A stretch of 64,000 bases of DNA, taken from Planctomycetaceae bacterium. Its GTDB lineage: Bacteria > Planctomycetota > SZUA-567. The stretch covers positions 1 to 64,000 of the forward strand of contig JAJQBO010000203.1 of assembly GCA_021203245.1 (NCBI GenBank). The letters run 5' to 3'. Position 1 is the stretch's first letter, and each line of letters opens with the position of its first letter. Made by a program: the position numbers and the translations under genes. Under the pieces are notes generated by a model that worked only from the letters and a program-made list of their open reading frames with translations, was not told where the DNA came from and made no database searches. This document shows positions 3,052 to 59,272 of this stretch, one piece after another.

Positions 3052-4107
3052 CTAGAGAATCGTCGGTTCCGGCGGGGTGAATGTGGCGACCATCACCCGG
3101 TTCCTGCCTGCCGCCTTCGCCTCGTACAATGCCTCGTCGGCGATGCGCATGGCGGCGTCCATGATGTTGCCGGTGCCGGCGCAGCCGGGCGGGACTTCGA
3201 CGACGCCGAAGCTGGCGGTGACCGGCAGCCGCCGCCCGTCCACCTTCACCGGGTTGGTGGCGATGACGGCGCGGATGCGTTCCGCCGCCAGGCGGCCTTG
3301 TTCGAGATCGACGTTCGAGAAGAAGAAGATGAATTCCTCGCCGCCGAGCCGTCCCATGATGTCGTTGCTGCGCAGTTGCTGCTGACTGATGGAGGCGATG
3401 TGCCGCAAGGCCGCGTCGCCCGACGGATGGCCGTGGGTGTCGTTGAAGCCCTTGAAGGAGTCGACGTCCATGACGGCGATGCAACTCGGGTTGTCCATGA
3501 TGGTGTTGCGGGCCATCTCCACCTCGGCCTGGGCGAAGAAGGAGCGGCGGTTCAGGAGGTTCGTCAGCGGGTCGTGCTCGGCCAGATATTTGAAGTTTTC
3601 CTCGCTCTTCTGCAGGGCGGAGAGGGCTGCGCCGCGTTTTTCCACCTCCTGCTGGAGTTCGTGGGTGATGCGGAGCAGTTCCTCCTCCTTCAGCCTGAGG
3701 GAGGTGAGGGCGTCGTCGAGCTGTTTGACCATGCTGTTGAAGGCGACGGAGAACTCGCCCATGAAGTCGACGCGCTGCGCCAGCTTGCCGCCCTCGACCC
3801 GTTCCATCTGCCAGATCAGGTGGCGCATATTGGCCTGCAGGACCTTGACCATGCCGGCCATGACGCCGCGCAGCTTGACTTCGGCAGAAAAATCGCCCCG
3901 GGCATAGCCGCCCAACTGACGCCGCAGTTCCACCAGGTATTGGTGGATTTCCGGCATGTCCGGCAACTCTGCCAGCTCGGGCGTCAATTCGGGGGCCTTG
4001 CCGCTCAGGAGCAGCTTTTTTATATGAGCGATGACCGCCTGGGCGGCGGATGGATCTTCCATCGAGGTCTCTTTACGCAGTTGTGTCGGTGCGCGGGTCG
4101 CTATCAT
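3052..4107 (-). CDS. Diguanylate cyclase (GGDEF domain, GGEEF signature)
   Basis: DPLTNLLNRRSFF...DVDSFKGFNDTHGHPSGDAALR...RLGGEEF; ATGA overlap with the upstream V4R gene at 4104-4107. Confidence 0.9.
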   Translation of the reverse strand: MIATRAPTQLRKETSMEDPSAAQAVIAHIKKLLLSGKAPELTPELAELPDMPEIHQYLVELRRQLGGYARGDFSAEVKLRGVMAGMVKVLQANMRHLIWQMERVEGGKLAQRVDFMGEFSVAFNSMVKQLDDALTSLRLKEEELLRITHELQQEVEKRGAALSALQKSEENFKYLAEHDPLTNLLNRRSFFAQAEVEMARNTIMDNPSCIAVMDVDSFKGFNDTHGHPSGDAALRHIASISQQQLRSNDIMGRLGGEEFIFFFSNVDLEQGRLAAERIRAVIATNPVKVDGRRLPVTASFGVVEVPPGCAGTGNIMDAAMRIADEALYEAKAAGRNRVMVATFTPPEPTIL

Positions 4108-4633
4108 TTCCCTACCATGTCGGCCTTGAAGCGGCAGGTGCGTTCGCCCATGCACCAGCAGTCGATTTCCTTGACCGAAAACTTCTTGCCGGTGAACGCC
4201 TCGAGTATTCCCTTGATCAAACCTTCGTCGTAGACGCAGATCTGCTCCTCGGTGTCGGGGAGGCCGCTGCAATCGAGATCCTCGTCGACGGTGAGGGTAA
4301 AGGTCATGTTGTCGAGATCCACCTCTTCGAATCGGACGATGCCGATCGACAGCTCCTTGAACTTTTCCTGGATGATATTGGCGAGTTCATTGACATCCTT
4401 TGCCTCCTGGCAATGGTGCTCGAAGAATGCCCTGCCCGCCATTTCACCGGCGTCGCGGAATATGGTGTCGGCCTCTTCCGTGCCGTAGCGCGTTCCAACA
4501 CATCGCGCAGGGCGAACTGGAACAGCCGGTAAACCTCAAGTGACGCCCCCGTACCCAGGTTGGGGCGGTACGGCTCCTCTGTTTCAGGATGCACGAGCGA
4601 CCACGAAAATTGATATTTGCGTGTTTTATCCAT
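4104..4633 (-). CDS. V4R (4-vinyl reductase-like) small-ligand-binding domain protein, apparently frameshifted near 4490
   Basis: ORF 4104-4442 carries a V4R-like C-terminus (DCSGLPDTEEQICVYDEGLIKGILEAFTGKKFSVKEIDCWCMGERTCRFKA); the N-terminus MDKTRKYQFSW...FQFALRDVLER is in another frame and ends near 4490. Confidence 0.65.
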
Positions 4634-4831
4634 AACATCTCCTTGCGGCTGTACATCTATACTATATCCGTATTTCACCGACAACTCAACATGTTTCGCC
4701 GATGGCACGCGCCCGCAAAGCGCGATTATATCGACTACACTGGCAGTCTATAAAAAAGCCGCCGGAACTGGTGAAAAGCCCAAGGCTTACCTGTTTCGGC
4801 GGCACATGTGCGACGCGTGATCGGCGGGTCG

Positions 4832-7333
4832 TTACACCCCTATACCCATGGCGCTGCCGACCTGGTAGACGATGAAACAGGCGACATAGGCCACCAGGGT
4901 GAAGCCTATCATCATGCCGATGGCGTATGTCCAGCCGCCGGTTTCACGCTTGGCGACGGCGATGGTGGCGACGCACGGGACAGACAGGAGCGCCCACAGC
5001 ATCATGCAGAACGCCTGCAATGTCGTGTAGTTCTGCTGCAGCTTGTCCCTGAGGCTGTCCGAATCCTCGTCCGCCTCGCCGACCGAGTAGACGATGCCCA
5101 TCTGGGCGACAAACACCTCTTTCGCCGCAAATGATCCGATAATGGCGGTGACGATGCGCCAGTCGAATCCGATCGGGCGGAAGATGGGCTCGAGGAAGGT
5201 GCCGATGCGCCCGGAAATGGAGTAGGCCAATTCCTCGGCCGCTTCGGCGTTGTCGATCTCCTCGTTCATTTCCTGCCGTGCGGCGCGCACGTCGTCGCGG
5301 TAGACGTGCACCGCTTCCATAAGGCTGGGCGACAGGTTCAGCCCGGCCAGGGACTGCTCGCGCAGGTTGGCGGCGACCCGGAAGTCATGGGAGTCCTCTT
5401 CCACTTCCTCGGTCGCTTCGGCGAAATGCTCGTCGATTTCGTCGACCCGAGAGACCGCCTCCGAGAACATGGCGAGGCCGGAAGAACGTTCCATAAGCCC
5501 GGCCTTGTTTGCCTCGTAGGCGGCTTCGGCTTCGGCGAAGCCGGGTTCCGTTTCCCAGTATTCCGAGTGGGCGTCGGCCAGCATGTCCTCGTTTTCGGTC
5601 CAGACGGCGATATCTTCCGCGTCGATGCCGAGGGTCGAGCCGACGGCGGTCGCGCCTTCCAGATAGCTGGTCTGGACCGCTTCGCGTTGCGCCTCGTAGT
5701 CCTGGTCGTACTCGGGCTTTTTCGGATAGGCGGTCATGGCCCAGAGCAGGATGCTCACGCCCAGGATGATGGTGCCGGCCTTTTTCACGTACTCGCCGGC
5801 GCGGTCCCACATCAGGTTCATGACGGCGCGGAAGGTGGGCATGCGGTAGGGCGGGAGTTCCATGACGAACGGCACCGATTCGCCTTTGAACAGGGTGGCC
5901 CAGAGCAGCTTCGCGCCGACGATGGCGAAGAGGATGCCGATGATGTAGATGAGCCACAGCATCCACGCCTGCAGGTGGCCGGGGAAGAAGGCGGGAATGA
6001 TCAGGGCGTAGATCGGCAGGCGCGCGCCACAGGACATGAACGGCAGCACCAGGATGGTCGCCAGGCGGTCGCGGCGGTTCTCCAGGGTGCGGGTGCCCAT
6101 GATGGCCGGGACGGTACAGCCGAAGCCCAGCAGCATCGGGATAAAGCTCTTGCCGTGCAGGCCGATCTTGTGCATCAGGCGGTCCATGATGAACGCCGCG
6201 CGGGCCATATAGCCGGTGCCTTCCAGGAAGGCGATGGCGAGGAACAGGAGGATGATGTTCGGCAGGAAGACGAGCACGCCGCCGACGCCGCCTATGATGC
6301 CGTCGACCAGCAGGTCGCGGAGCGGGCTGTCGGCCGACTTGGGCCAGAGCCTGGCGACATAGTCGCCGAGGCTGCCGAAGGCGTCTTCGATCCAACCCAT
6401 CGGCGGATCGCCCAGGGTAAAGACAAGCTGGAACATCAGGTACATAAGAAGGAGGAAGATCGGCAGGCCGAGCACCCGGTGCAGGATGATGGAGTCGATA
6501 GTGTCCGAGATGTCGATCCGCGACTCCGGCGTGGTCCTGGTCGCTTCGGTGCAGAGGCCGGAAATCCAGCCGTATTTCGCCTCGGCGGCGCGGACCTCGG
6601 GCAGGTCGTCGTTCTCTTTCTCGAAGACCTGGCGCAGGCCGTCCACGCGGTCCAGGAGCGACGAGTCCTTGATGTGGCTGGCGACGTCGGGATCGTTCTC
6701 GAACAGCCGGGTGGCGAGCCATTGCGGCGGATAGCGGTTGGCAAGCTCGCGGTCCGGTCCCGAAAGGGCGGCGTCGATGTCGGCGATCGGCTTGTCGAGT
6801 TCCTTGGGATAACTGATCTTCTGATACTCGGGCGCGGCTTTTCCCGACGCTTCGGCGACGGCCTGCAGGAGTTCGCCCATGCCCTGGCCCTTGTTGCCGA
6901 CGGTGGGGACGATGGGGGTCTTCAGGAGCGTCTGGAGCAGGTCCAGGTCGTACTCGATGCCCCGGGCCTTGGCGACGTCGAACATGTTCAGGGCAATGAC
7001 GAGCGGCAGGCCGAGTTCCATGATTTGCGTGGCGAGGTAGAGGTTTCGCTCGAGGTTGGACGCGTCCACGACCTGGACCACCAGGTCGGGCTTGTCCATG
7101 ACGAGGAAGTTCCGGGCGACGACTTCCTCCGGCGAGTTGGCCGAAAGGGAATAGGTGCCGGGCAGGTCGACGATGGTGTAGCGGACGCCGTCCCGTTCGA
7201 CTGTGCCTTCCTTCTTTTCGACCGTGACGCCGGGATAGTTGCCCACGTGTTGGCGCGAGCCGGTCAGGGCATTGAAGACGGTTGTTTTGCCCGCGTTGGG
7301 GTTGCCGGCTAGGGCTACGGTGATCTCCTGCAT
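4832..7333 (-). CDS. feoB: Ferrous iron transport protein B
   Basis: [44 protein letters not shown]-domain; Gate motifs ([38 protein letters not shown]); adjacent feoA. Confidence 0.95.
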
Positions 7334-7506
7334 TGGTGCTTCTCCAGTGATTGTAGGAACAGTAAAAGTTTGCCTGGCCAAAAGTGTTTGAGGGGCCAAA
7401 TTCCTGGCGGAAAAAAAGGGTGAACTGACAGCCGGGAGGACGGTGTCGTGACAGGCCGTTTTCCCGATACCACATGAAGCCCGGCCTCAACCATTTTCAC
7501 CATGCT

Positions 7507-7743
7507 TTAGAGTTTTTCCACCGCTACCTTTGACGCTTCCTCTTTACGCAACGACAGCCGGTACCCGCGAACCTTGATGTCGAGCGGGTCGCCGAGGGGC
7601 GCGACGCGTTCCACTTCCACAACCGAGCCGCGGGTCAGGCCCATTTCGTTGATGCGTTTCTTGATGTCCCGCTCACCGTCGATGCTGACAACCGTGGCTT
7701 TTTCGCCTGGTTTGACGGTATCGAGCGTCACGATTTCACTCAT
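7507..7743 (-). CDS. feoA: FeoA family protein
   Basis: 78 aa SH3-like FeoA pattern (RINEMGLTRGSVVEVERVAPLGDPLDIKVRGYRLSLRKEEA). Confidence 0.9.
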   Translation of the reverse strand: MSEIVTLDTVKPGEKATVVSIDGERDIKKRINEMGLTRGSVVEVERVAPLGDPLDIKVRGYRLSLRKEEASKVAVEKL

Positions 7744-8150
7744 TCGGCTTTCTCCTGTTTTCGGTGATCACGAACCTCCTCCGCAAATATGGCAAGTTTT
7801 TCCACGATTTCGCGCGGCATGGAGTGCTCCATGCCGCACGCGGCCTTTTCCGACGTCTCGGGATCGACGCCCAAAACGTCTGTGAAAAACCCGCGCAATG
7901 TTTCGTGCCGCCTCACCACGTCGGCGGCTATCTTGCTGCCCGCCTCGGTGAGGTTGACCGCTTCATACGGTGAATAATGGATCAGTTGCATCTGCTTCAA
8001 CGCCCTGAGGGCGGACGTTACCGTTGATTTGTGCACGTTGAGGGCGTCGGCGATATCACGTGAACGCGCCCCGCGTTCGTCGCGGCTGAGATTGAAAATC
8101 GCCTCGAGATAGTCTTCGAGAACGGGAGTTACCTTGACCGTTTCGTGCAT
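7740..8150 (-). CDS. DtxR/MntR-family metal-dependent transcriptional regulator
   Basis: VLEDYLEAIFNLSRDERGARSRDIADALNVHKSTVTSALRALKQMQLIHYSPYEAVNLTEAG; overlaps feoA. Confidence 0.9.
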   Translation of the reverse strand: MHETVKVTPVLEDYLEAIFNLSRDERGARSRDIADALNVHKSTVTSALRALKQMQLIHYSPYEAVNLTEAGSKIAADVVRRHETLRGFFTDVLGVDPETSEKAACGMEHSMPREIVEKLAIFAEEVRDHRKQEKAE

Positions 8151-8214
8151 ACGCTTCCTCAATCGCCGACGCGGGCGCCGCGCCCGGTTTACCGCGTTTT
8201 TTGCTTCGAACAAA

Positions 8215-8230
8215 GTTTTGTTATCAAAAC
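8215..8230. promoter_or_regulatory. Palindrome GTTTTG-TTAT-CAAAAC, candidate operator of the dtxR-feoA-feoB operon
   Basis: Perfect 6-4-6 inverted repeat about 65 nt upstream of the regulator start. Confidence 0.4.
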
Positions 8231-8381
8231 AGTATTCCCTTCCTGAAAAAATTCAACCATTTTTTACGGTCTGCCAGGAAAAATCGCGAAAGACCGATAA
8301 AAAAAAACCGGCAAATACCGAGGAATACCCGGGCGGCACACGATCGTTCGGGACGAATAACCCTATCACCGAGGAGACGGT

Positions 8382-9132
8382 ATGCGGATACGGGCGGCGG
8401 CGGCAAGATGTTGCATCGCGGTTTCGGCGTTCTGCACGCTCGTGGCGGCGACGGCTGCGGCAGGCGAAGTACGGACGGTATCGTTCCAGCACAGCATCAA
8501 CATGGTTGTCGATTACCCCCAGGTGGGTGTGGAGGCAATCGATCAGCAGGTGCGCGAATGGCTGGAGGAGCGCCTGGCCGAAACGGTGGCCGGGTTGGCC
8601 GGTGTGGCTGTCCATCCCGACATGGAGGACGGCGACGACGGCATTACGGTGGAGTACGCGCTCGAGCGGCCGTCCGATCACGTCCTCAGCCTGGTGTTCC
8701 GGACGTCGTCATTTCCGTTCAAGGCCGCGCACCCGACGGCGCGGACGGATGTCCTCTCGTTCGATCGCCGCAGCGGCGGCCGTTTGACCATGGACAGGAT
8801 TTTCGCTGATCCGGATGTCGCGCTGGAGATTATGGCCGCGCGCGCGGGCGCGCATCGCCGAATCGTTGCGGCGCAGCAACCCCGAGCAAATACCGGAACG
8901 GATGGCGGAGGACGATGATCTCTGGTTTGCCGAAGGCTTCGTCCCCACCCAGGACAACTACGCCGCCCTGGCCCTGGTGCCTGGCGGGGTGCGGGTAGTA
9001 TTCCAGCAATACCAGGTGCTTCCCTATGCTTTCGGCATGCCGTCGGTGTTTTTCAGCCTGGACGAACTGGACCCGGCTGGGCCGGACCTCGCGCTGTGGG
9101 AGAGCGGCCGGACCCTGCCCGAACACGATTAA
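8382..9132 (+). CDS. Secreted DUF4163/DUF3298 (RsiV-like) protein, apparently frameshifted near 8832-8857
   Basis: VLSLVFRTSSFPFKAAHPTARTDVLSFDRRSGGRLTMDRIF in one frame and FVPTQDNYAALALVPGGVRVVFQQYQVLPYAFGMPSVFFSLDEL in another, contiguous across a GCGCGCGCGGGCGCGC tract. Confidence 0.7.
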
Positions 9133-9222
9133 TGCGGCGCCGACAGCCATGAACCGGGAACGACCCGGCCCCGTACCCGACAGTCTCTACCAGCCGGCAG
9201 TGAGGGGAGCGGAGGAAGCGCG

Positions 9223-10173
9223 ATGTTGTGGAGTCCCGTCTACGAGACTGGTGTGCCGATTATGGACAGCCAGCACCAGGAGTTGTTTCGGCAGATCGAT
9301 GTTCTGCTCGACAATCCCGACGAGAGCACGGTCGGCGATGCCCTGGATTTTCTCGGCAAGTATGTTATCCAGCACTTTTCCACCGAGGAAGAGCTGCAGA
9401 CCCGCAGCAAATACCCCAAATATCCCCCCCACCACCACATGCACGAGGTCTTTGTCGAGAGCTACAAAAAACTCAAAAAACAATATGATGAAGGCAGCAA
9501 CAATCCGCTCCTCCTCATGAAAATCACCCGCACCGCCCTCGACTGGCTGAAAAGCCACATCAAGGTACACGACAAGGAATTCGCCAAATACTATCTCGCG
9601 AACCAGGGCGGGGCGGTGGGGGCGGCCCGCGCGCCGGCCAGTCCGGCCGGCGACAAAAAATCGGCCGGCTCGCTGAACGACCGGCTCGCGAGGATGAATG
9701 CGACAACAAAAGGGGCGGCCAAAACCGTGCCGCCCCGCGCGACGACCCCGGCCCGCGCGACGCCTGGCCGCACGCCGCCGGCCAGGACGTCTTCGTCGGC
9801 CACGCCCCGTGCACCGCGCAGCGGCAATCATCTCCGCGAAACGGCGAAGCCGACTAAAACGCCCGCGCCCGCTCGTCTCGCCGCCACCCGCCCCGCCGCG
9901 ATAAAGAAGGATGTGCAAAAGCAGCCGTATCCCACAGCCGTCGCCAACCTGGCCGGCAAGCTTGAGAAAACCGACGCTCGAACCGTCAGGAGTCGCTCTC
10001 CTCTCGGGAGCAAAGTGGATTCGCGCAGCGCTGAAAAGACGCCGTATCGTTCCGCCGCGGCGAGGCAGACAACGCCAGCCACGCCGGCGCGGCCGGCCAA
10101 GGCGCTGGCGTTAGGCGCAAAAAAAACCGCGGGCGCGGCGGGCGGGTCGATGGCGACAAAACGGACGCGGTAG
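9223..10173 (+). CDS. Bacteriohemerythrin domain with long basic Ala/Pro/Thr/Arg-rich tail
   Basis: Hemerythrin ligand pattern: MDSQHQELF, HFSTEE, HHHMHEVF, HIKVHDKEF; low-complexity tail for the last ~190 aa. Confidence 0.85.
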   Translation: MLWSPVYETGVPIMDSQHQELFRQIDVLLDNPDESTVGDALDFLGKYVIQHFSTEEELQTRSKYPKYPPHHHMHEVFVESYKKLKKQYDEGSNNPLLLMKITRTALDWLKSHIKVHDKEFAKYYLANQGGAVGAARAPASPAGDKKSAGSLNDRLARMNATTKGAAKTVPPRATTPARATPGRTPPARTSSSATPRAPRSGNHLRETAKPTKTPAPARLAATRPAAIKKDVQKQPYPTAVANLAGKLEKTDARTVRSRSPLGSKVDSRSAEKTPYRSAAARQTTPATPARPAKALALGAKKTAGAAGGSMATKRTR

Positions 10174-10283
10174 TAGGCCAGTACAGGCTCATGCTGGGCG
10201 CTTAGGTCGGTGGTGTGGCGCAGTGGATCATACTTGTGAATCACTACTGAACATTACAATTCCGTAGCAAAGAACGGCCCGCC

Positions 10284-10449
10284 TGCCCCGGCACAACTTC
10301 CCGTCCGTCTCCCGGTTCACCGTTTAGACGCCGGGGTGACGTGTGGGGAAGAGTGCGGCATTTCAGGCGCGAGGACGCGTCTCCCTCCAAGCGTCACCCC
10401 GGCGGGAGAACAGTGAACCGGGCGAGAAACGGGAGGTTGTGCCGGGGCA
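10284..10449. repeat. Family A palindromic element, copy 1 (arms in inverted order)
   Basis: TGCCCCGGCACAACTTCC...CGCCGGGGTGACG then CGTCACCCCGGCG...GTTGTGCCGGGGCA; two ~58-bp arms. Confidence 0.85.
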
Positions 10450-10515
10450 ATCGCCCCTATAGTGGCTATGAACTCACCGTAATACTCGCACGACGATCCA
10501 GTTTTGGACAAAAGT

Positions 10516-10549
10516 GATTGTGAATTATGAAGTGTGCATTGTGAATTGA
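10516..10549. repeat. Family B AT-rich heptamer element, copy 1 (short)
   Basis: gattgtgaattatgaagtgtgcattgtgaattgaa. Confidence 0.7.
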
Positions 10550-10553
10550 ACTC

Positions 10554-12269
10554 TCATTCCGCCATATACTCCTCGATCAGCTCCGACAAAATCGGCATCA
10601 CCTGTTTTTTCCGCGAAACAACCCCGCGCATCTCATACACCGAATCCTCGTATTGCGGCAGGGTGATGCAGGGGAGAAACTTCTCGTCCGCAGAAATCAC
10701 CAACAGGCTGGACAGGATGGTGATATCCGTCACCAGCAGCGCCGAGAACAGCCGGTTCGCGCCGCGCCGTTCCGCCTCGAGGTAGGCGATGAATTCGGCC
10801 TTGCGGTCAAGCACCTCGTGCGGATCCTCCACTTCAATCTGGCTGACCGTGAAGGTGATGTCCTGCTCGGCGTATTCCTTCATGTCCTGGTGAATGAGTT
10901 CCTTCGCCGTGCGGCCGCTTATCTTGCTGGCGGCGGCGATCAGGTCCTTGCCGAGGGCGGCGATGTCGTGGTTGGTGATGTTTGCGAGATATTCCGCCAT
11001 GGCGATGTCGGTTTGGGTGGTCGTGGCCGATTGCAGGATGAGCGTATCGGCCAGGATGCCGCACAGGAGAATCGACGCCATCGCTTCACTGAGAGGCACG
11101 CGCCGTTCCTGGTAGAGTTCGGCGACGATGGTGCAGGTCGCGCCCACCGGTTTGTTAATGAAGGTGATGGGGTTGCGGGTGGGCGGATTGCCGAGCCGGT
11201 GGTGGTCGATAATTTCGAGGATGCGGTAGTTTTCGATGCCTTCCACCGCCTGCGACTGCTCGTTGTGATCCACCATGATGATTTCGATATTCGGTTCGCG
11301 GAAGATGTCGGACTCGGTGATGACCCCGACCACCCTGCCCGAGTCGTCGACGACAGGCAGCGATTTTCCCGGCGCGTCCGACAGGAGGGGCGCGATTTTC
11401 CGTATCGCGTCGCGGCGGTTGACCGGCCGCAATTCCGTCGTCGACATCGCCGACACCGGCACCGAATAGATGATGAGGAGCGTCGTCGTCGACGTGTCGT
11501 AAGAGGAGGAAAGGATGGAGACGCCTTTCCGCTGCGCTTCTTCCCGAAGCGCGCGATCGACGATGTTGCCGTTGGTGACGATGAGGAGCCGCACCCCTTC
11601 TTCGACCGCGTGGCGGATGACGTCGACCCGGTCGCCGGAGATGACGATGGTGTTTGCAGGCACGTGGCTCGAGAGTATCTGCGTGAAGGTGTCGAATTCC
11701 GACGCCGCCACCACGATGGGACTTTTCCGTATCTCGGACGAATTCGCCAGCACCAGCGCCTGGGCGTGGAGGACGCCGGCGATAAGGTCGACGGAAGACT
11801 GGATGGCCGTCTTCTGGGTCGGGTTGTTCACCGCCACCAGCCGTTCGGCGACAAAGCCGTAGTGGAGGAGCGAGTGGTAGCAGCCTTCGTCGTCGACGAC
11901 GGGCAGGGCCTGCATGCCGGTGGCGCGCATCGTCGACATCGCGTCCCAGAGCGAGACGTCGGTCGTGACGGCCTGGGCGCCGTGGTTGTCGTAGTAGTCG
12001 ACGCGCGGGATCAGGTCGGGCAGGAATTCAGGCAGCGGCACGCCGAAGCGATCAAAGATGTATTCGGTCTGCGGGGTGGTGTTGCCGGCGCGGGCGGCGC
12101 GGACGTTTGTCTGGCCCATGGCCCGCTTGAGGGCGGCGTAGGCGGCTGCGGCGACGCACGAATCGGTGTCCGGATTGCGGTGGCCGATGACGTAGACGAC
12201 CGAGTCTTCCTTCGGGGCGACGAAGCGCCGTTCCGAGGCGCGGTGTTTGACCAGGGTGTTGCTGCTCAT
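10554..12269 (-). CDS. CBS/DRTGG-domain DHH-family protein, putative manganese-dependent inorganic pyrophosphatase
   Basis: VYVIGHRNPDTDSCVAAAAYA DHH start, CBS-like SLPVVDDSGRVVGVITESDIF, DHHRLGNPPT motif. Confidence 0.85.
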   Translation of the reverse strand: MSSNTLVKHRASERRFVAPKEDSVVYVIGHRNPDTDSCVAAAAYAALKRAMGQTNVRAARAGNTTPQTEYIFDRFGVPLPEFLPDLIPRVDYYDNHGAQAVTTDVSLWDAMSTMRATGMQALPVVDDEGCYHSLLHYGFVAERLVAVNNPTQKTAIQSSVDLIAGVLHAQALVLANSSEIRKSPIVVAASEFDTFTQILSSHVPANTIVISGDRVDVIRHAVEEGVRLLIVTNGNIVDRALREEAQRKGVSILSSSYDTSTTTLLIIYSVPVSAMSTTELRPVNRRDAIRKIAPLLSDAPGKSLPVVDDSGRVVGVITESDIFREPNIEIIMVDHNEQSQAVEGIENYRILEIIDHHRLGNPPTRNPITFINKPVGATCTIVAELYQERRVPLSEAMASILLCGILADTLILQSATTTQTDIAMAEYLANITNHDIAALGKDLIAAASKISGRTAKELIHQDMKEYAEQDITFTVSQIEVEDPHEVLDRKAEFIAYLEAERRGANRLFSALLVTDITILSSLLVISADEKFLPCITLPQYEDSVYEMRGVVSRKKQVMPILSELIEEYMAE

Positions 12270-13120
12270 GCCTGTTTTTCTCCACTGCCGATATCGGATT
12301 TCGCCACCCGGTCGAGCGCGACCAGGGTTTGGAGGAGCGCCGGGATGTCCCGGAGGGCGATCATGTTGGGGCCGTCACACTTGGCCGCGTCGGGGTTGTC
12401 GTGGATTTCCATAAACACCCCGTCCACGCCGGCCGCCACCGCCGCGCGGGCCAGGACGCGCGCCATGGACCGGTCGCCGCCGGAGGACGTGCCCTGGCCG
12501 CCCGGCAGTTGCACGCTGTGGGTGGCGTCGAAGACGACCGGCTTGCCGGTGGCGCGCATGATGGGGAGGGCGCGCATGTCGGAGACGAGGTTGTTATATC
12601 CGAACGATGCGCCGCGCTCCGTCAGAACGACGTCCTCGTTGCCGGTCGAGGCGACCTTGCCGACGGCGTTCGCCATGTCCCACGGGGCCATAAACTGGCC
12701 TTTCTTGATATTGACCGGTTTTCCCGTCTTTCCGGCGGCGACGAGGAAATCGGTCTGGCGGCACAGGAAGGCGGGGATTTGGAGAACGTCCAGCACTTCG
12801 GCGGCGGCGGGAATTTCCTCTTCCTTGTGGACGTCGGAGAGGACGGGGACGCCAAGGTTGCGTTTGATATCCCGGAGGATACGGAGGCCCTCCCGGAGGC
12901 CTGGACCGCGGAAATTGCCGACGCTGGAGCGGTTTGCTTTGTCGTAGGAGGCTTTGAAGACATAGGGGACGCCCGCGTCCGAGGCTATGCGGGCCAGTTG
13001 TTCCGCCATACTTCTGGCATGCTTTTCCGATTCGATGACGCAGGGCCCGCCGATAAGGACGAGCGGCCCGCCGCCGCCGATTTCGACCGCTCCAAGGCGG
13101 ATGCGGCGCGTTTGGGTCAT
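12266..13120 (-). CDS. kdsA: 3-deoxy-8-phosphooctulonate synthase (KDO-8-P synthase)
   Basis: LIGGPCVIESEKHARSMAEQL, FKASYDKANRSSVGNFRGPGL, FDATHSVQLPGGQGTSSGGDR. Confidence 0.93.
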   Translation of the reverse strand: MTQTRRIRLGAVEIGGGGPLVLIGGPCVIESEKHARSMAEQLARIASDAGVPYVFKASYDKANRSSVGNFRGPGLREGLRILRDIKRNLGVPVLSDVHKEEEIPAAAEVLDVLQIPAFLCRQTDFLVAAGKTGKPVNIKKGQFMAPWDMANAVGKVASTGNEDVVLTERGASFGYNNLVSDMRALPIMRATGKPVVFDATHSVQLPGGQGTSSGGDRSMARVLARAAVAAGVDGVFMEIHDNPDAAKCDGPNMIALRDIPALLQTLVALDRVAKSDIGSGEKQA

Positions 13121-13324
13121 ATGTAACTCCTTATGACGCCACGATCTAACAATTTTTCGACCGAGTAACTGTACAAAATAGCAATTTACGGTAACAAACC
13201 TCGGCAGTCGGGAACTACCAAGATGTAAGCGGAGTTCAGAAAAACGCCGCAACCGGACCGGTCCCAGTATACGTAAACGATGGAATTGTTGCACCACCTT
13301 ACATCAAAATCTCAGGAGAACGTC

Positions 13325-14002
13325 ATGTTCAGGAAATACGCTCCCTTTGTCGCCGCCCTCGCTCTCGCCCTCACGCTGCAGAGCGCGTTTGCCGGCGACG
13401 GCCCCCGCAAAGGCGATGGCCCGCCTCCCCCGCGTCCCGGCCGTGATATCGGTCCCCGTGAAGGCCGCCCCGGTCCGCGCGACGGGCGTTCCGGTCCGCA
13501 TAACCGCGACTTCGGCCCGCGTGGGCATTGGGGCAGGGGTCCGGCCCACGACATGGGCATGGGACCGATTGGCCACGGCATGTTCGGCCCGCGCTTTATG
13601 GACGAGCTGGAACTGACCGAAGAGCAGAAGACCCAGATGGTCGACGCCATGACCGCCACCTTCCGCGAAGGCCTGCTGGCCCGGATGGAGATGGCCGAAG
13701 CCCGCAAGGCCCTCCGTAATCTGCGCGAGATGGAAAGCACGGACGCCGACGCGATTATCTCCATGAATGAGGCGATGGGCGCGGCCAAGGGCAAGATGGA
13801 CGCCCTCCGCATTAAGGCGAAAGAACAGTTCGACACTATCCTCACCCCCGAACAGCGCGCCAAGCTGGACGAAAGGAAGGATGACTGGAAGAAGGAATGG
13901 AACGACCGCGACGACGACGAAGACGGCCCGCGTGAAGGCAGGCGCGGCCCCCGTCACGGCCGTCATGGTCCCGGTCCCCGTGGTCCCAAGGGCTGCTGGT
14001 AA
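13325..14002 (+). CDS. Spy/CpxP-like periplasmic protein with Gly/Pro/Arg-rich N-terminal region
   Basis: Signal peptide MFRKYAPFVAALALALTLQSAFA; LTxxQ-type motifs LTEEQ and LTPEQ in helical region. Confidence 0.7.
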   Translation: MFRKYAPFVAALALALTLQSAFAGDGPRKGDGPPPPRPGRDIGPREGRPGPRDGRSGPHNRDFGPRGHWGRGPAHDMGMGPIGHGMFGPRFMDELELTEEQKTQMVDAMTATFREGLLARMEMAEARKALRNLREMESTDADAIISMNEAMGAAKGKMDALRIKAKEQFDTILTPEQRAKLDERKDDWKKEWNDRDDDEDGPREGRRGPRHGRHGPGPRGPKGCW

Positions 14003-14184
14003 ACGGGATACGTCCTTCTGATTCGCGAGGACAAGCGTTGCAAGGCAGGCTTTTGCCCCTATAATGGAGGACGGGCGGCGGCGTCGCAGGTTCGCGGCGT
14101 CGCCGTGCCGCCCCTCTCCCGGCGTGGCTGGGCGGCGGCGGTTCGAGTCCATCCTATGGCGGCGCGGGAGCGTCCGGGGCAGTT

Positions 14185-14763
14185 ATGCACGAAGCCGATG
14201 CACAAGACCTTGCCGACGTGGCCGCGACCCTGGACGGGGACAAGGATGCGTTTGCGGGTATTGTCGAGCGCCACAGCGTCGCGGTGCAGAAACAGATGCG
14301 CAACTTCACCCGCGATGCGGGTTTGGCCGAGGAATTGGCCCAGGACGTGTTTGTCGAAGCATATCTGGGGCTGGCCAAATTCCGTGGCGACGCGCCGTTC
14401 CGGCACTGGCTGGCCCGTATCGCCACTCTGACCGGCTACGGCTTTTGGGAAAAGCGCGACAGGGAAAAGAACAAGGTTCCCCTGCACGAAAACATGGATT
14501 TCGCCCGGGAGGAAGACGCCGCACCCGGCAATCCGGACGAGGCGGCCAAGTTGCTCTTCGACCTTTTGGCCACCCTTCCGGCCGACGACAGAATGGCGAT
14601 GACGTTGATGTACCTGGAAAACCTCGGGCAGGAAGAAATTGCCCAACGCATGGGGTGGACCAGGGTTATGGTTGCGGTACGATTGTACCGGGCCAAACAG
14701 AAGCTGCGCAAGCTGGGCGACAAGGAGCCCTGGAAAGGACGGTTGGAATGGATGCTTTCGTAG
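14185..14763 (+). CDS. ECF-type RNA polymerase sigma factor
   Basis: Sigma-2 (AEELAQDVFVEAYLGLAKFRGDAPFRHWLARIATLTGY) and sigma-4 (LPADDRMAMTLMYLENLGQEEIAQRMGWTRVMVAVRLYRAKQKLR). Confidence 0.88.
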   Translation: MHEADAQDLADVAATLDGDKDAFAGIVERHSVAVQKQMRNFTRDAGLAEELAQDVFVEAYLGLAKFRGDAPFRHWLARIATLTGYGFWEKRDREKNKVPLHENMDFAREEDAAPGNPDEAAKLLFDLLATLPADDRMAMTLMYLENLGQEEIAQRMGWTRVMVAVRLYRAKQKLRKLGDKEPWKGRLEWMLS

Positions 14764-15029
14764 AAAAACTGGATCGCCTCACCTCGATGGCCAGGCATCA
14801 GTCCGTTCCCCGGCCCCTGGACGGCGAGAGTGTCATGGCGCGTATTCGCGGGCTGGAGATGGAGGACGACGGGGTGCTGTCGTTGCCGCTCCGTTTTTAC
14901 GCCGGCGGCGTTGCTGCGGCTGCGGCGCTGGCGCTGGCCGTCACCCTCTTCGCCGCCACCGCATGGACTGAAATGTCCAGTCCCATCATCGCCATGGATA
15001 CCCTGGTCGACGTGATGGACATGTTATGA
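14748..15029 (+). CDS. Small single-TM protein, candidate anti-sigma factor
   Basis: 93 aa, overlaps the ECF sigma stop; one TM helix (FYAGGVAAAAALALAVTLFAATAW); no zinc-binding HxxxCxxC seen. Confidence 0.6.
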   Translation: MDAFVEKLDRLTSMARHQSVPRPLDGESVMARIRGLEMEDDGVLSLPLRFYAGGVAAAAALALAVTLFAATAWTEMSSPIIAMDTLVDVMDML

Positions 15030-15529
15030 CCGATCATACCCTGAAACAGGTTTCTGACTCCCAGAGGATCATCGTCAGCCACCACGCCAAGCGCGAGAAA
15101 AAGCGCTACGCCAAGGCCATTCTCCTCCTGCTGCTGGCGGTGCTGGCGGGGGTGGTCATCGGCGTTGGCGGAACCCTTGTCTATATAAAAAACAAGTTCC
15201 ACCGCCGTCCGCCGTCGCCCGACGCGGTGGCGGAAATGCTGACCAGGCATATGCACGAGGCCGTGACGCTCCAGGGCGACGAGGATTCGCGTATCCGGGA
15301 CATTATTGACGATCACATGAGTGAAGTCGACGCCATGCGCCGGTCCACCTTTCGCGACTTTCGTACGGTTATGGACCGGATGAACCAGCAAATTGCCGAA
15401 GTCCTTGGCCCTGAACGCTATGCGCTGTGGGTAAAGGAGCGCGAACGCCGATTTGGTAAACGCAAACCGCCGCCGCCCCCGCATGAACGGCGCGACCGAC
15501 GCCACAACGGCCCGCCGCTGCCGCGCTGA
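15026..15529 (+). CDS. Membrane-anchored Spy/CnrX-like periplasmic sensor candidate
   Basis: N-terminal TM helix AILLLLLAVLAGVVIGVGGTLVYI then helical domain with FRDFRTVMDRMNQQIAEVLGPERYALW; overlaps preceding ORF. Confidence 0.6.
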   Translation: MTDHTLKQVSDSQRIIVSHHAKREKKRYAKAILLLLLAVLAGVVIGVGGTLVYIKNKFHRRPPSPDAVAEMLTRHMHEAVTLQGDEDSRIRDIIDDHMSEVDAMRRSTFRDFRTVMDRMNQQIAEVLGPERYALWVKERERRFGKRKPPPPPHERRDRRHNGPPLPR

Positions 15530-15640
15530 AAAAGCGGCTGCCGCGAAGTTTTTCTTCCCCGACGCGACAGTATGTGTAGAATCTCTCTCGTCCCCACCCA
15601 TTTATCGGGTAGGGCTTTTACTTCGTCCCCAGGGGAATCG

Positions 15641-17857
15641 ATGACCGACCTGCTGCCCAGTCTGAGCGCCGTCAGCCAGATCATCGTGGTAATTCTGGCC
15701 TTTTCCGTCCTGATCTTTGTCCATGAACTCGGCCACTATCTCGCCGCACGCATCACCGGCGTGCGGGTCGAGCGCTTCTTCGTCGGTTTCGACATCTTTG
15801 GCCTTGCCTTGAAAAAAGAATACAAGGGCACGGTTTACGGTATCGGTATCCTCCCCCTGGGTGGGTATTGCGCTCTCGCCGGGCAAAATGACGACCCGCG
15901 CAAACAACGCCAGACCAACGCGGCGGAGGAACTTCAGAACAAGCCGCTGTGGGCGTGCGGGCTGATGTTCGGCGGCGGCGTTATCATGAACTTCATTTTC
16001 GGCTTTCTTGTCCTTATCGCCGCCTATATGTACGGGATTCCCTTTATTCCCGCCGTCCTCGGGTTCCTCGACCCCAACGGCCCGGCCGCGGTCCACGGCT
16101 TCCGGACCGGCGACCGCATCCTCCGCGTCGACGGCCGCGAAGTCGCATCTTTCGAGGAGGCGGCCGAAGCCATCGCCCTCGCCGGCGCGGGCGGTGAAAT
16201 GGATGTGGATGTCGAGCGCCGCGATGCGGCCGGCATTGCCGAAAACCTGACCATCCACGTCAAGGGCCGCGGCTCCAACATGCGCGGCAACCTGAACACC
16301 ATCGGTGCCGACCCCGAGCGGTCGCGCATCGTCGGCGGCGTGGTCGACGACCCGGTTTTCGCCGACATGCTGGCCGGCCGTCTGGGCGTCGGCGACGAAA
16401 TCGTCCGCGTCGACGGGGTCGATATCCCGCCGAACCGGGGCGAGCGCATCCAGTCGATGCTTGCCAACCGTCCCGGCGAAGCGGTTCGCCTCGGCGTCCG
16501 TTATCCCGACGGCAGTGAGCGCGAGGTGGTCGTCCCCCTCGAGACTTACGGCGATTGGGACATGGGCCTGCGCATCGCCGTGGCTATCGGCACCGTCACG
16601 CCCGGCGGTCCCGCCGACCAGGCCGGCCTGCGATCGGGCGACCTTATCGTCGCCTACCAGTTGCCGGGCCAATCGGAGCCGGGACGCTTCGCCAATACCA
16701 AACAATTCGTCGACATGGTCGCCGAGGCGGCCATGAAGCCGGTCCACATCGATATCAACCGTGGCGGCGATCTCCTCACCGTCAAGGCCCAGCCGGCGCT
16801 CCAGGCCGCCAACGGCGACTACGATCCCGAGGCCGACACCCTCTTGGGCGTCCTGGGCAGTATGGAAGGGGACAACGGCTTCCTGGTCGAACAGGTGCTG
16901 GCCGGGTCGCCCCTTGCCGGTCTTGCCCAGCCGGGCGACTACCTTGCCGGCCTGAACGGCAAGCCGCTCCCGAAGGGGAAATCGCTCCGCGAAGCGGTGG
17001 AAGAAGCCGCGTCCGACAGCGTGCGCCTCTTTGTCGCACGAGGCGGTCCGCAGGAAGGCGAGGACGCGGTCATGCCGCCCCGGCGCGACGTGCCGGAGGC
17101 CAACCTGTCGCTCCGTCTCGCGCCCCGCATCAACCCGGACTACCGCCGCCCGATGATCGGCGTCGATCTATTGCCCGGTCCCATCGTCGCGGTCGAGTCG
17201 GGCAGCTTTGCCGACGCGCAACTCGGCGGCATCCGGCGGCTGGCCGGGTCGCGGCTGGCGTTATGGCAGTATTCGCCCGATCTGTCGACGACGACGCTTC
17301 GTTTCGTCTTTCCCGACAATTCGCCCTATGGCGGCGGCCTGAAATCGTTTGTGGTCGAGACCCCGGCCGAAATACGGGAAAACCCGGTCGCGGCGGGCCT
17401 GATGAGCCGGTTGCCGGTCGTCCTCAAGACCGCCGAAGAGGTCCATCCCATGCCGTTCTTCCCCGCTGTCGCGGCGGCTGGCAAAAAATGGGTCGACCTC
17501 TCGCTCATGGTCTACCGGGTGTTGCACAAGCTGGTGGTCCGCACCCTGCCGCTGGACGCGGTGGGCGGGCCGGTGCAGTTGTTCCGCATCATTAAAATCG
17601 CCGACGATCGCGGCTTCGCGTATTTCCTCTATATCGTCGCGCTGATCAGCGTCAACCTGGGTGTATGCAACCTGCTTCCGTTCCCGGTGCTGGACGGCGG
17701 CCACCTGGTGTTCCTCCTGATTGAATGGGCCATGAGGCGTCCGCCGCCACCGGTGGTGCGGGAGACTGCCCAATGGATAGGGCTTGTGTGCCTGCTTGCC
17801 CTGATGCTGACGGTGACCGGCTACGATCTGTTGCACCTCGTCAAAGGCACGGGATAG
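15641..17857 (+). CDS. rseP: RseP-family site-2 intramembrane metalloprotease with about four PDZ-like domains
   Basis: HELGH zinc motif, C-terminal NLLPFPVLDGGH motif, four PDZ-like segments between. Confidence 0.9.
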   Translation: MTDLLPSLSAVSQIIVVILAFSVLIFVHELGHYLAARITGVRVERFFVGFDIFGLALKKEYKGTVYGIGILPLGGYCALAGQNDDPRKQRQTNAAEELQNKPLWACGLMFGGGVIMNFIFGFLVLIAAYMYGIPFIPAVLGFLDPNGPAAVHGFRTGDRILRVDGREVASFEEAAEAIALAGAGGEMDVDVERRDAAGIAENLTIHVKGRGSNMRGNLNTIGADPERSRIVGGVVDDPVFADMLAGRLGVGDEIVRVDGVDIPPNRGERIQSMLANRPGEAVRLGVRYPDGSEREVVVPLETYGDWDMGLRIAVAIGTVTPGGPADQAGLRSGDLIVAYQLPGQSEPGRFANTKQFVDMVAEAAMKPVHIDINRGGDLLTVKAQPALQAANGDYDPEADTLLGVLGSMEGDNGFLVEQVLAGSPLAGLAQPGDYLAGLNGKPLPKGKSLREAVEEAASDSVRLFVARGGPQEGEDAVMPPRRDVPEANLSLRLAPRINPDYRRPMIGVDLLPGPIVAVESGSFADAQLGGIRRLAGSRLALWQYSPDLSTTTLRFVFPDNSPYGGGLKSFVVETPAEIRENPVAAGLMSRLPVVLKTAEEVHPMPFFPAVAAAGKKWVDLSLMVYRVLHKLVVRTLPLDAVGGPVQLFRIIKIADDRGFAYFLYIVALISVNLGVCNLLPFPVLDGGHLVFLLIEWAMRRPPPPVVRETAQWIGLVCLLALMLTVTGYDLLHLVKGTG

Positions 17858-45790: not shown

Positions 45791-47086
45791 TTACCACCGC
45801 CCAACCCGCTTGCGGTCCGCAACCTTCCGCCCGCTCCCCACCTCGTCGAAATAACTCCGCTGCGCGCTCGCCACCCCTTGCGGCTCGACATAGACATAGC
45901 GTCCGCCGCGCACCTCGGCATTGAGGGCGAGCATGCGTTTCTTCCACTTCACCTCCCACTCCTCGAGCGATTCGCCTTGATCCCGCAGGAGGCGCTCGAC
46001 CTCGGCCAGGGCGGCCTGGGTGATACGGCGATTCCATTGCCGGTCGAAGTCGCGCGGTTCGCGCGCGCCCGAGGCGCAGGTCTCAACCAGGGCAGGGACG
46101 TCCAGGCCCCACACCACCCGGCAGGCGCGCATAAAGCGGCCCATCACCGGCACCGGCCAGCGCATATAGGGGTAGGGGCGGTGCGGGTCGATGGCGGCGT
46201 CGATGGCCTGACGGACCGCCTCGGGGCCGACTTTCTCGAGTTCATTTTGCTCGCGGATAAAGATGGCGTTACCGGTTGCCATGCGGAAGTCGAAGACAAT
46301 GCCCCACATGACCGAATAGTCGTCGATACTGATCTGGTCGCCCATGATCTTGTTCATGGTGGCGCGGACCGAGGGGGCGCGGTTGGAATTGAGGAGCTGG
46401 GCCAGGTGAGTCAGCCGTTCGACATTGACCGAGCCGACGTCGTCGACGCCGACGGCGATGCCGTTATGGTCGAACTGGATTTTCCCGCTCTCCATGTTCA
46501 TGGCCATGCCTTCGGCCAGCCACAGGGGAACGGTGGGAATTTTCGCGACCTTGTAGCCGGACACCAGTTCGTACACTTCCGACGGGGTCGGATAATGCAC
46601 GGCGCGGTGGCAGTACTGGTGGAAGCCTTCATGCATGGCGGTCGCTTCGGGCGGCACCTTGCCGCTCTTGCGGTAGTAGACATGCACCTCGCCCGAGGTG
46701 GTGCAGAAGCCGTTGGTCGAATAGGCAGGGAACTCGTACAGCGCCGCCTGGCGGTCGTACTGTTTGCGGTTCAGGTGGAGCCAGAAGGGCATGGCCTCGC
46801 CCGGAGGCAGGGGCAGTTCGTCCAGGCCTGAATAGATGTCGAACATCTTTTCCATCATCAAGGCGCAACTGCGGGCCATTTCCTGGCTCCGCGACGCGTC
46901 TTTCGCGCCGGCGACCGAGACGACATAGTGCTGGGAGGAATATTCCCCCGCCTGGGTCGGTTCGCCCGAATCGGCCCAATCGCTGTCGGCCTCGACGCAG
47001 CCGGCGACCACAAAGGCCAGAACAGCCAGGAGGAGGAGGGCAGGGCGGTAGTTAGTACGCATCCGCATTGAAAATCCCCAATACAA
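45791..47086 (-). CDS. Lipoprotein with HExxH-type (HEGFH) motif, DUF1570-like putative metallopeptidase
   Basis: Lipobox AFVVAGC; AMHEGFHQYCHRAVHYP and downstream WLAEGMAMNMES glutamate. Confidence 0.65.
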   Translation of the reverse strand: MYWGFSMRMRTNYRPALLLLAVLAFVVAGCVEADSDWADSGEPTQAGEYSSQHYVVSVAGAKDASRSQEMARSCALMMEKMFDIYSGLDELPLPPGEAMPFWLHLNRKQYDRQAALYEFPAYSTNGFCTTSGEVHVYYRKSGKVPPEATAMHEGFHQYCHRAVHYPTPSEVYELVSGYKVAKIPTVPLWLAEGMAMNMESGKIQFDHNGIAVGVDDVGSVNVERLTHLAQLLNSNRAPSVRATMNKIMGDQISIDDYSVMWGIVFDFRMATGNAIFIREQNELEKVGPEAVRQAIDAAIDPHRPYPYMRWPVPVMGRFMRACRVVWGLDVPALVETCASGAREPRDFDRQWNRRITQAALAEVERLLRDQGESLEEWEVKWKKRMLALNAEVRGGRYVYVEPQGVASAQRSYFDEVGSGRKVADRKRVGRW

Positions 47087-56037: not shown

Positions 56038-56240
56038 GGTCTTCTCCAAATCTCTGTTCGGGTATTTTCGACTGCCGTTTTTCCGGAGCGGCTGCCTTTC
56101 CCCGTGGATTCCGGCTGAACCCCGGCTACGGGAAAAACCGCCAGGACAACATCGGGACAACACTGCGTAAAAAAAAGTCCGCAACGGCTCAACAGGCCTT
56201 GCGGTTCATCCCTCATTTTTAGACCACAGCCCTGCAAATG

Positions 56241-59200
56241 TCAACGGATTCCGTAATCGCGCATGATGCGCTCGGCCAGCATCTGGTCGCGAAGGCCCGC
56301 CAGGATGCCCCGCGCCTGTTCGTGTTCGCGTTCGCCCGCGCCGTCGGCGGTGAGGAGCATCGTCGCCGCCTCGGTTCTGGCGGCGTCGTCCGCCTCCTCC
56401 TGATCCGGGTACACGGCAAAGACGTCGGCGTAGGCGCGGAGCGCGTCGTCCATGCGCCCCTGGGCGCGGTAGACCCGCGCCGTCTCCAGGGTGATGGTGG
56501 CGGCGTCGGGCCGCGATCGCGCCCCGCCGTCCAGGAGATCCCGCGCCAGATCGAGTTCGTCCAGGGCCAGGTCGTAGCGCCCGTCGGCCGACCGCGCCCG
56601 GGCGGCGAGGATGTACATGGCGCGTTCCACCGGCGGCGGCGCGTCGCCCCGTTCGATGATGGCGTGGGCGAGGCGTAGGCCGCGGCCGCGCCGTTTTCGT
56701 CCGCGAGGGTGCTTTCGCCCAGCAGGTTGAGGATTGGCACCGTCCACGCGCCGTTCAGGTCGGCCAGGGCGTTTTCCTCCAGGAGCGACCGCACCTCGGC
56801 CACCACCTGTTCGGGCGGGAGCAACGGATTGGCGTCGGCCGGGTTGTTCAGGGCCAGGCGGGCGGCGTGGTAGGTCGCGTCCTGGATGCGGCCGGGCGTC
56901 GCCGGCGGCAGGCTCGGGGACGCCGGATCGGCGGCGAAAAGGTAATGCCCGTAGGCTTCGCGGCTGTAGCCCGCTTCTTCGGCGAGGTGACCGGCCAGGA
57001 GCGCCGCCTCGGCGTCGATTTCGGCAAAGACGTTCAGGCGGGTCAGGGCCAGGCGGCTTTCGCCCAGCTTGCCCATGCATACCGCCCAGCGGCGCGCCGC
57101 GTTGGCCCGCAGCACGCGCGGCAGTTCCGAGTTGTTCATGAGGGAAAGGTAGTCGACGGATGCGCCGCGCCACTCGCGCATCAGTTCCAGGGCGCGCCCG
57201 CGCGACCACTTGGCCCGCCGCGCCGCCAGGCTGGACGGTCCCGAATTGGCAATCGCCTGGTTGAACGGGCGAAGCGACGATTCGATGCGGCCGCGCGCCT
57301 CATCCCGCCAGCTCATGGCCATGCCGGCGAACGGGCCCCGCTCCCACTTGTCCGCGAGGTGCATCAGGAACGCGCCCGACTCCATGTTGACCATCCCCTG
57401 GTCGAGGCTGTCCTGCAGCGAATAGCCGCCGGTGGAGGCTTCCTGAAAGCTTGCCGCCGCCGCGGCGAAGTCGCCCAGGGTCCGGTCGATGGCGGCGGTG
57501 TCGGGTTCGTCGGCGTGGAGGATTTGGTCGGCCCGGGCCAGCGCCAGGGCGTGCCTGGCCTCCCCCAGGTGCGACGACAGCACGCTGTCCGTCACCCCGG
57601 CTGGCTGGCGCTTTCGCAGGTGCGAAATCATGCCGATGGCGAGTTCCAGTTTCTGGATGCCGTCCTCGGCCCATTCGTAGGCCGACTCGACGGCGATGGC
57701 GAGGTCGTAGCCGGCGTCCGGGTCGCCGCCGTGCCACAGGAGGGCGCCGAGGGCGGCGGTCACCCGTTCCGCCTCGGACTGGCGCTTGTCGGCGAGGGAA
57801 AAGTATCCCGCCTCGCTGTCTGCGGCCAGCAGATCCATGTCTCCGGAAAGGGAAACGGGCCCGCCCATCTTGCCCAGCTTGAGGATCGTCTCCATCGCCA
57901 GGAATTCCGACACCAGGAGGGACGAGAACAGCCGGTCGCGCCGAAGCATCCGCGACGCCTGGTGGTTGAGGGCGAGGGAGATGCCGTAGTCCCGGCGCGT
58001 TTCGGCGGTGCGCGAGCCGTCCCGCGATGCGGCGTAGCGGATTTCCCGGTTGCCGTTCGAGGGCCGGGTGGCGGGGTAGAGGTATTCGAACGCGTCGGCA
58101 TAACGGCCGCGGCGCAGTTCGGCGTTTCCTGCCACCTGCCAGGCGGCGGGCGAGGCATGGCCGCCGGCCAGAATGGGGGCGAGCGTATCCATGGCCGCGC
58201 TCGGCTCGGCCAGGTCAAGCTGCACCCGGGCCTTGATGACCCGCGCGCCGTCCCACGGCCCCGGCGACATGGTGCCGTCGATGGCGAGGGAGAGGGCGTC
58301 GTCGGCCTGGCGGAGGAGCCGCGTTTTTTCTTCAAGCCCGACGGCGTTGGCCATTTCCACCAGGGCGAGGGCGAGGCCGAGGCGGGCGGTGCGGCGGTCG
58401 TCGAGAGAGGGCTGTTCTTCGTCGATGACTTTCGCATACCACGCCACCGCGTCCTCCTGGTTGCCGAGGATGGCGGCGGCCTGGCCCCGGTAGAGGGCGG
58501 CGCGGGCGCGGAGTTCGTCCTTGGCCGGGTCGGAGTCTAGGTAGGCTTCGGCTTCGGAGGCGGCTTCGCGGACGAACTGTTCTTCCCGCCGGGCCATTCG
58601 CAGGGCGATGCGGTCGAGTTCGATCTCCTTGCGGCGGTTCCCTATGGGGAAGGCGAGGCGGGCCCGGTCGAGTTCGGCAATGGCCTGGTTCAGCAGCCTG
58701 TCGCGGCGCTGCTGGTCGCGGATGGTGCCGGGGTAGGGGATTTCCTCCGCCAGCATGCGGAGGTTCCGGGACATCCGTTGGGCCGCGTCCCCTTCCATTC
58801 CCTGCGGCAGAGACAGCCCGCCGACGTGGGAAAAATAATCGACCGCCTCGCGGTATTCGCCGATGGCTTCGTAGGCGCGCCCGGCCCAATAGGCGGCCTG
58901 GACGTTATATGCCGGTTCGGGCAGGCGGTAACGGTTGTTCGAGAGCTGGACAAACGCTTCGGCCACGTCCTCGTATTCTCGTCTGTCGGTCGCGAGGCCG
59001 AGGCGGGCGCGCTCCCGGACAAAGCGGGCGTTTTCACGGATGAGGAGCCAGTCGAGGTACAGGGGATCGGACGCCGAATGCGGCGTTGCGACGGGGTCGT
59101 CCAGGATGGCGTTGGCTGTCTCGAGGGCGGGGGAGTAGACGCCGCCGTCCAGCATGCGGTGGGCGATGTCCAGTTGCGTCTTGGCCGAACCCGGGGTGAG

Positions 59201-59272
59201 GGCCGGTTGTTCCTGCGCCGCAGTCAGAGCGGTCAGGCAGAGGCAACAGAACATGGCAATCAGGACGCGCAT
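56241..59272 (-). CDS. Large secreted TPR/helical-repeat protein, apparently frameshifted near 56664-56690
   Basis: Signal peptide MRVLIAMFCCLCLTALTAAQEQ; repeated helical segments; C-terminal repeats (YDLALDELDLARDLLDGGA...ITLETARVYRAQGRMDDALRAYADVFAVYPDQEEADDAARTEAA) continue in ORF 56241-57209. Confidence 0.65.

Follow-up and report, generated by a model that had tools for sequence, protein, structure and literature searches.

A candidate transmembrane ECF sigma factor switch with a Spy/CnrX-like sensor in Planctomycetota

Introduction

In the CnrYXH system of Cupriavidus metallidurans, encoded on plasmid pMOL28, overlapping genes specify an extracytoplasmic function (ECF) sigma factor (CnrH), an anti-sigma factor of about 95 amino acids (aa) with one transmembrane (TM) segment (CnrY), and an anchored helical periplasmic sensor (CnrX). 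When CnrX binds metal, it is believed to displace CnrY and thereby to free CnrH (PMC4598750). Cnr, SigAb and RpoE8 are already known cases of such modules in Proteobacteria: the RpoE8 operon of Azospirillum brasilense encodes a sigma factor, a small protein and a 'periplasmic heavy metal sensor' (PMC12826043), and SigAb of Acinetobacter baumannii is encoded with AabA and AabB, both of which show anti-sigma activity, with AabB modelled around the tail of AabA (PMC12153292). Here we describe a gene run in a 64,000-nucleotide (nt) stretch of DNA from a gut planctomycete (contig JAJQBO010000203.1, positions 1 to 64,000; hereafter the window). Four genes at 13325-15529, namely spy1, an ECF sigma factor gene, a gene for a 93-aa single-TM protein, and spy2, would form a transmembrane ECF sigma switch that responds to envelope stress by direct CnrX-type sensing, a reading to which we give a probability of roughly 0.7. 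The fifth gene of the run, rseP, is regarded as a neighbour. The genome carrying the window (G000) is a 4.09-Mb metagenome-assembled genome, 88.8% complete, in which the window lies on contig C47, and a sister genome (G005) is 95% identical to it.

The components of a CnrYXH-type system, an ECF sigma factor, a small one-TM protein and a membrane-anchored Spy/CnrX-like protein, were all found in the window with a secreted Spy-like protein alongside, and their order is conserved, so the CnrYXH-like logic proposed in the first-pass annotation was upheld. The gene order is Y-X-H in Cnr but sigma-TM-sensor here, Cnr drives a pump operon whereas the linked gene here encodes a Spy-like protein, and the window sensor is cysteine-free and its 93-aa partner not significantly CnrY-like. 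The A. baumannii module, compared here only in its gene order and its topology as described, shares the order and overlap of the genes as well as the combination of a sigma factor, a small TM anti-sigma factor modelled like CnrY, and a helical periplasmic partner. In contrast to the membrane-anchored spy2 product, AabB is predicted to be secreted; SigAb autoregulates and has few direct targets (itself, relA and sabS), and a linked Spy-like gene is not mentioned in the passages considered (PMC12153292).

In the sigmaE-RseA-RseB-DegS-RseP system of Escherichia coli, an ECF sigma factor is likewise held by a TM anti-sigma factor and a periplasmic partner under an envelope-stress logic. No linked RseB or DegS was found in the present locus, however, the link to RseP is not conserved, and the putative anti-sigma factor is far smaller and has no Pfam match. 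The spy1 product is comparable with CpxP/Spy and ZraP as a Spy/LTXXQ-like secreted protein, a usual envelope-stress output, and Spy is induced by envelope unfolding stress (PMC8144458). The difference is that an ECF sigma factor here replaces the two-component system, and that a second, anchored Spy-like protein takes part in the circuit.

Gene organization and conservation of the four-gene core

The five consecutive same-strand genes described in the first-pass annotation were all present as open reading frames (Table 1), as were the overlaps among the middle three: the sigma factor gene and the gene for the 93-aa protein overlap by 16 nt, and the latter overlaps spy2 by 4 nt (ATGA). The outer spacings are looser, with 182 nt between spy1 and the sigma factor gene and 111 nt between spy2 and rseP.

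A spy2 profile was searched over 294 planctomycete genomes and generated hits in 50, and 42 spy2 loci outside the window were examined. An ECF sigma factor gene was located directly upstream on the same strand at 39 of these loci, the remaining three lying at contig ends. The gap between the sigma factor gene and spy2 was mostly 250-440 nt and filled by a small TM gene, and most of the relatives examined had such a gene in this place. Genes for secreted LTXXQ or Metal_resist proteins were located upstream of the sigma factor gene both in the genus and in distant families (e.g. loci L145, L147, L150, L152 and L154), while at one distant locus (L149) an unrelated secreted protein was encoded in the place of spy1. 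The three-gene overlap and the linkage to spy1 are kept across relatives and are not due to chance. As the sigma factor gene precedes spy2 throughout the phylum and secreted LTXXQ or Metal_resist genes accompany it even in distant families, spy1-sigma-TM-spy2 is an old four-gene arrangement of Planctomycetota. Conservation of the order in relatives had been set beforehand as a test of the first-pass annotation; it was confirmed for these four genes but not for the five-gene order, with rseP present at only one of the 42 other loci.

The sigma factor and the putative anti-sigma factor

The sigma factor generated hits on Sigma70_r2 (7e-10) and r4_2 (1.6e-13) in Pfam and on TIGR02937 (2.2e-20), and showed 29% identity to CnrH. 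The 93-aa protein is predicted to consist of a cytoplasmic part of ~50 aa, a TM segment at ~52-70 and a periplasmic tail of ~20 aa, and resembles CnrY in length (93 vs 95 aa) and layout (TM start at ~52 vs 46). It did not generate hits in the Pfam scan, hence no domain of the RseA or ZAS type was found, which bears out the earlier description of an anti-sigma-like TM protein without a zinc motif. The relatives of the 93-aa protein share a conserved cytoplasmic stretch, and six of 24 matched the NCBIfam model 'anti-sigma factor' (NF052375; best 2.9e-4). The CnrY/NccY model NF033790 matched one of the 24 weakly (E = 0.039), a VDVT-like stretch that distant members share was recognized by eye only, and a search for further CnrY relatives on plasmids returned Cupriavidus only. 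Mainly from its position and layout, we infer that the 93-aa protein acts as the anti-sigma factor.

The sensor spy2 and the secreted protein spy1

The spy1 product is a secreted LTXXQ/Spy-domain protein, which matched Pfam LTXXQ (PF07813) at 1.2e-10, above the cut-off, Metal_resist at 2.2e-8, and NCBIfam Spy at 3e-8, the last being under the equivalog cut-off of Spy itself. The spy2 product alone generated no confident Pfam match. Metal_resist was detected in nine of 39 spy2 family members (best 1.2e-6), and the profile built from the 39 members matched Spy (3oeo) at 2.1e-4. Comparison of the same profile with CnrX gave a weak hit on chain 3zg1 in hmmsearch (E = 0.61) and a modest alignment to CnrX, for which the pMOL28 sequence was the reference, in hhalign (E = 8.6e-5, probability 60%, 75 columns); the sensor thus appears, modestly, to be homologous to CnrX. 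MHEAVTL of spy2 aligns with LHEAVPL of CnrX, with one His in common. By eye, the helix before LGPER does not have CnrX-like residues, and the metal-binding His and Met positions of CnrX are little conserved in the window spy2 (the C-terminal ones were aligned by eye).

The promoter element and its candidate regulon

Comparison of the regions upstream of spy1 across genomes revealed a predicted ECF promoter element, GTAACA-N17-ACTA. The exact element was located upstream of spy1 in seven genomes, in the form GTAACAA-N16-ACTA in the window (G000), G002 and G004, and GTAACA-N17-ACTA in G001, G003, G009 and G015. The variant in G005 ends with ACTG, and G006 carries GTAATT-N17-ACTA with the same spacing. 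The copy upstream of spy1 is the only match to GTAACAA-N16-ACTA in the window when one mismatch is allowed. Exact copies of the 10-base pattern number 22 across 16 family genomes; the 4.09 Mb of G000 contain only three. Among the 16 sites other than those of spy1 (one of them from a genome of the same order outside the family set), some recur in different genomes before genes of the same kinds: HlyD-type adaptors (G009, G012), MacB-type permeases (G001, G003), secreted proteins with an LDFxDVxxLxxxGV stretch (G000, G005, G009), and a small secreted Arg/Tyr/Gly-rich protein (G000, G005, G003). Thirteen of the 16 non-spy1 sites were intergenic, compared with six of 30 control sites listed (Fisher p ~8e-5), and nine were intergenic and also lay no more than 260 nt from a same-strand gene start, compared with one of the 30 (Fisher p of 8e-5 to 9e-5), the control being the listed sites of the reversed pattern and both p-values being calculated irrespective of genome relatedness. 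From the place of the element, this sigma factor probably reads GTAACA-N17-ACTA. The sigma factor gene itself is preceded by a sigma-70-like box that matches the consensus at 10 of 12 positions and is kept in the sister genome, and TATAAT-like boxes were also present upstream of the sigma factor gene in several relatives. Therefore, the sensor system is probably constitutive, with spy1 as the switched output.

Two protein families encoded next to the element may be described here. At L190 (G000:C50:29000-35500), positions 3055-6016 encode secreted proteins in tandem, in which an LDFxDVxxLxxxGVxxSVIINM stretch is repeated; the element lies ~70 nt before the first of these genes, and the same family and element occur together in G009:C167 (L167). 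The Arg/Tyr/Gly-rich protein (ARETxxG...GPRRHxxPRRG) is encoded at 3087-3386 of L192 (G000:C185) and 2893-3207 of L195 (G003:C336). One protein of each family was scanned, the former from L190, and neither generated a Pfam match.

Proposed mechanism

In the resting state, the 93-aa protein would hold the sigma factor with two short cytoplasmic helices, and spy2 would sit on its periplasmic tail, keeping it in the sigma-binding state. A signal in the periplasm would alter spy2, upon which the 93-aa protein would let the sigma factor go, and the freed sigma factor would transcribe spy1 from GTAACA-N17-ACTA, along with other secreted and efflux genes in this genome or its relatives. Envelope protein that is damaged or unfolded is the most likely signal and a metal a less likely one, because the window sensor has no cysteines and the link to spy1 points to chaperoning. 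Direct sensing is likely by analogy with CnrYXH (PMC4598750) and with SigAb-AabA-AabB (PMC12153292). A more speculative version, put forward tentatively, is a chaperone-titration loop, in which unfolded periplasmic protein would pull the tethered spy2 domain off the anti-sigma tail, and newly made spy1 would absorb the clients and switch the system off. If this holds, the sensor would be a membrane-tethered relative of the very chaperone that the sigma factor induces, a planctomycete sigma factor for envelope stress would have a Spy-like protein that senses unfolded protein directly, and sister copies re-tooled with cysteines would sense copper.

Several observations weigh against the proposed switch. 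For two AlphaFold models of the sensor (predicted local distance difference test scores of 74 and 89), Foldseek returned neither Spy nor CnrX with confidence, NccX appearing only at E = 4.4, and the models were not used as support for a CnrX/Spy fold of spy2. The alignment of the 93-aa family with CnrY was not significant (hhalign E = 0.22). The spy1 sites are themselves the source of the promoter motif, the control used a reversed pattern with ATG at its end and a limited sample of loci, and the sister-genome sites are not independent, a relatedness that the p-values ignore. Finally, two HtrA-like proteases with PDZ domains are encoded elsewhere in G000, and the sigma factor may be released by proteolysis.

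Alternative explanations

The first-pass annotation had combined the five genes into one circuit, with RseP as a dedicated site-2 protease cleaving the 93-aa protein. RseP is a genuine M50 protease (Peptidase_M50 2e-50; TIGR00054, 244.7 bits) with several PDZ stretches, and its gene follows spy2 at the same short distance and on the same strand in G000 and the sister genome. The sister genome is, however, the only other place where rseP was found near the spy2 module within the stretch examined per locus, and thus no genetic tie between RseP and the circuit was found that would suggest a sigmaE-RseA-RseP type. In the other relatives the closest sigma factor and RseP genes are on separate contigs, and rseP adjoins dxr in five genomes, alaS in three and the chorismate synthase gene (aroC) in two, as confirmed by Pfam for all five dxr, two of the three alaS checked and both chorismate synthase neighbours. 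Moreover, rseP is the sole full match in G000 in an RseP family search, and no copy of the GTAACA-type element precedes it in the window scan. RseP of ~735-740 aa was also found in relatives where the gene is unlinked to the module, so the long form with extra PDZ domains looks like a lineage trait. As the linkage is not conserved and a single full RseP match was found in the genome, the dedicated site-2 protease is unsupported and the five-gene circuit very improbable; rseP was judged to be a housekeeping neighbour. CnrYXH-type systems are thought to switch by conformation (PMC4598750), and therefore a site-2 protease is not required. The same consideration makes classical regulated proteolysis, in which an HtrA-type protease and the housekeeping RseP, both general enzymes, would cut the 93-aa protein, unlikely, and the protein offers only ~20 periplasmic residues. 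In its favour, the genome encodes the two HtrA-like proteases and an apparently functional RseP, and the A. baumannii authors leave proteolysis of AabA open (PMC12153292).

The direct switch proposed here could also serve a metal-sensing system proper, for copper, nickel or zinc, in which spy1 would bind metal. CnrX and Metal_resist are the closest named relatives, SigAb responds to copper (PMC12153292), and paralogous modules are linked to pumps. A second sigma-TM-spy2 set in G000 (L074, G000:C101:8000-22000, positions 6703-13918), whose sensor has cysteines, directly precedes the gene for an AcrB-family protein with CusA-like sequence, followed by an adaptor gene; the corresponding adaptor of the sister genome contains a heavy-metal-binding domain. 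Similar sets are located beside genes for HMA-domain P-type ATPases or HMA-like proteins in G002, G006, G009, G012 and G015 (the ATPase neighbours were Pfam-checked in G006). In sensors encoded beside CusA/CopA-like pumps, the helix that precedes LGPER contains cysteines, as CxxxC in five of six, whereas the spy1-linked sensors, including that of the window, have none there, and no pump gene, hence no linked metal-efflux operon, was found beside spy1-type modules. The N-terminal segment of spy1 is Met/His-rich in four of the members checked, but this enrichment is absent in several relatives and was set aside as a sign of a metal role. Metal sensing by the window system is thus rather doubtful. 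Because pump-linked sensors carry cysteines and spy1-linked ones do not, the module is a sensor chassis with two branches, one for metals and the other linked to a Spy-like protein.

No description of the planctomycete module was found in the open literature, the main papers on ECF and planctomycete classification being outside that search. As far as searched, the planctomycete four-gene form with a Spy-like output, the family of small TM proteins without a Pfam match, the two sensor branches and the predicted promoter are new. Planctomycetota are rich in ECF sigma factors, with as many as 55 scored matches in one genome, and few of these factors have a known input. This module offers a conserved sigma factor together with a candidate sensor, a candidate inhibitor family that no Pfam model covers, a predicted promoter and a shortlist of targets. 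The cysteine-free spy1-linked and the cysteine-bearing pump-linked modules provide a natural comparison that could show how one chassis switches signals.

Table 1. Features of the spy1-rseP region (window coordinates)
Feature	Position	Strand	Description
Predicted ECF promoter element GTAACA-N17-ACTA	13191-13217	+	Upstream of spy1
spy1	13325-14002	+	Secreted Spy/LTXXQ-like protein, 225 aa; likely circuit output
Sigma-70-like promoter TTGCAA-16-TATAAT	14038-14065	+	Before the sigma factor gene; consensus match only
ECF sigma factor	14185-14763	+	192 aa; Pfam Sigma70_r2/r4
93-aa single-TM protein	14748-15029	+	Putative anti-sigma factor
spy2	15026-15529	+	167 aa, membrane-anchored Spy/CnrX-like periplasmic protein; putative sensor
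Hairpin + CTTTT, spy2-rseP gap	15592-15619	+	Possible end of the sigma operon; weak
rseP	15641-17857	+	738 aa; neighbour, judged not to be a circuit member

Other features of the window

The stem-loop between spy2 and rseP has the arms CCCCACCC...GGGTAGGG and forms a perfect 8-bp stem in the sister genome. Its stability in the window was that of shuffled sequences and not greater (z = -0.06), and an intrinsic terminator at this position was not adopted.

Elsewhere in the window, ORFs of 367, 423 and 1017 aa (1696-2799, 45791-47062 and 56219-59272, respectively) encode proteins whose N-termini are signal-like and which matched nothing in Pfam at 1e-4. Positions 10554-12269, beside kdsA, encode a protein of the DHH-DHHA2 pyrophosphatase type with inserted CBS and DRTGG domains, and positions 9223-10173 encode a hemerythrin domain followed by a long low-complexity tail rich in Ala, Pro, Thr and Lys. 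FeoB, FeoA and an iron-dependent repressor of the DtxR/MntR type are encoded in one same-strand run at 4832-8150.

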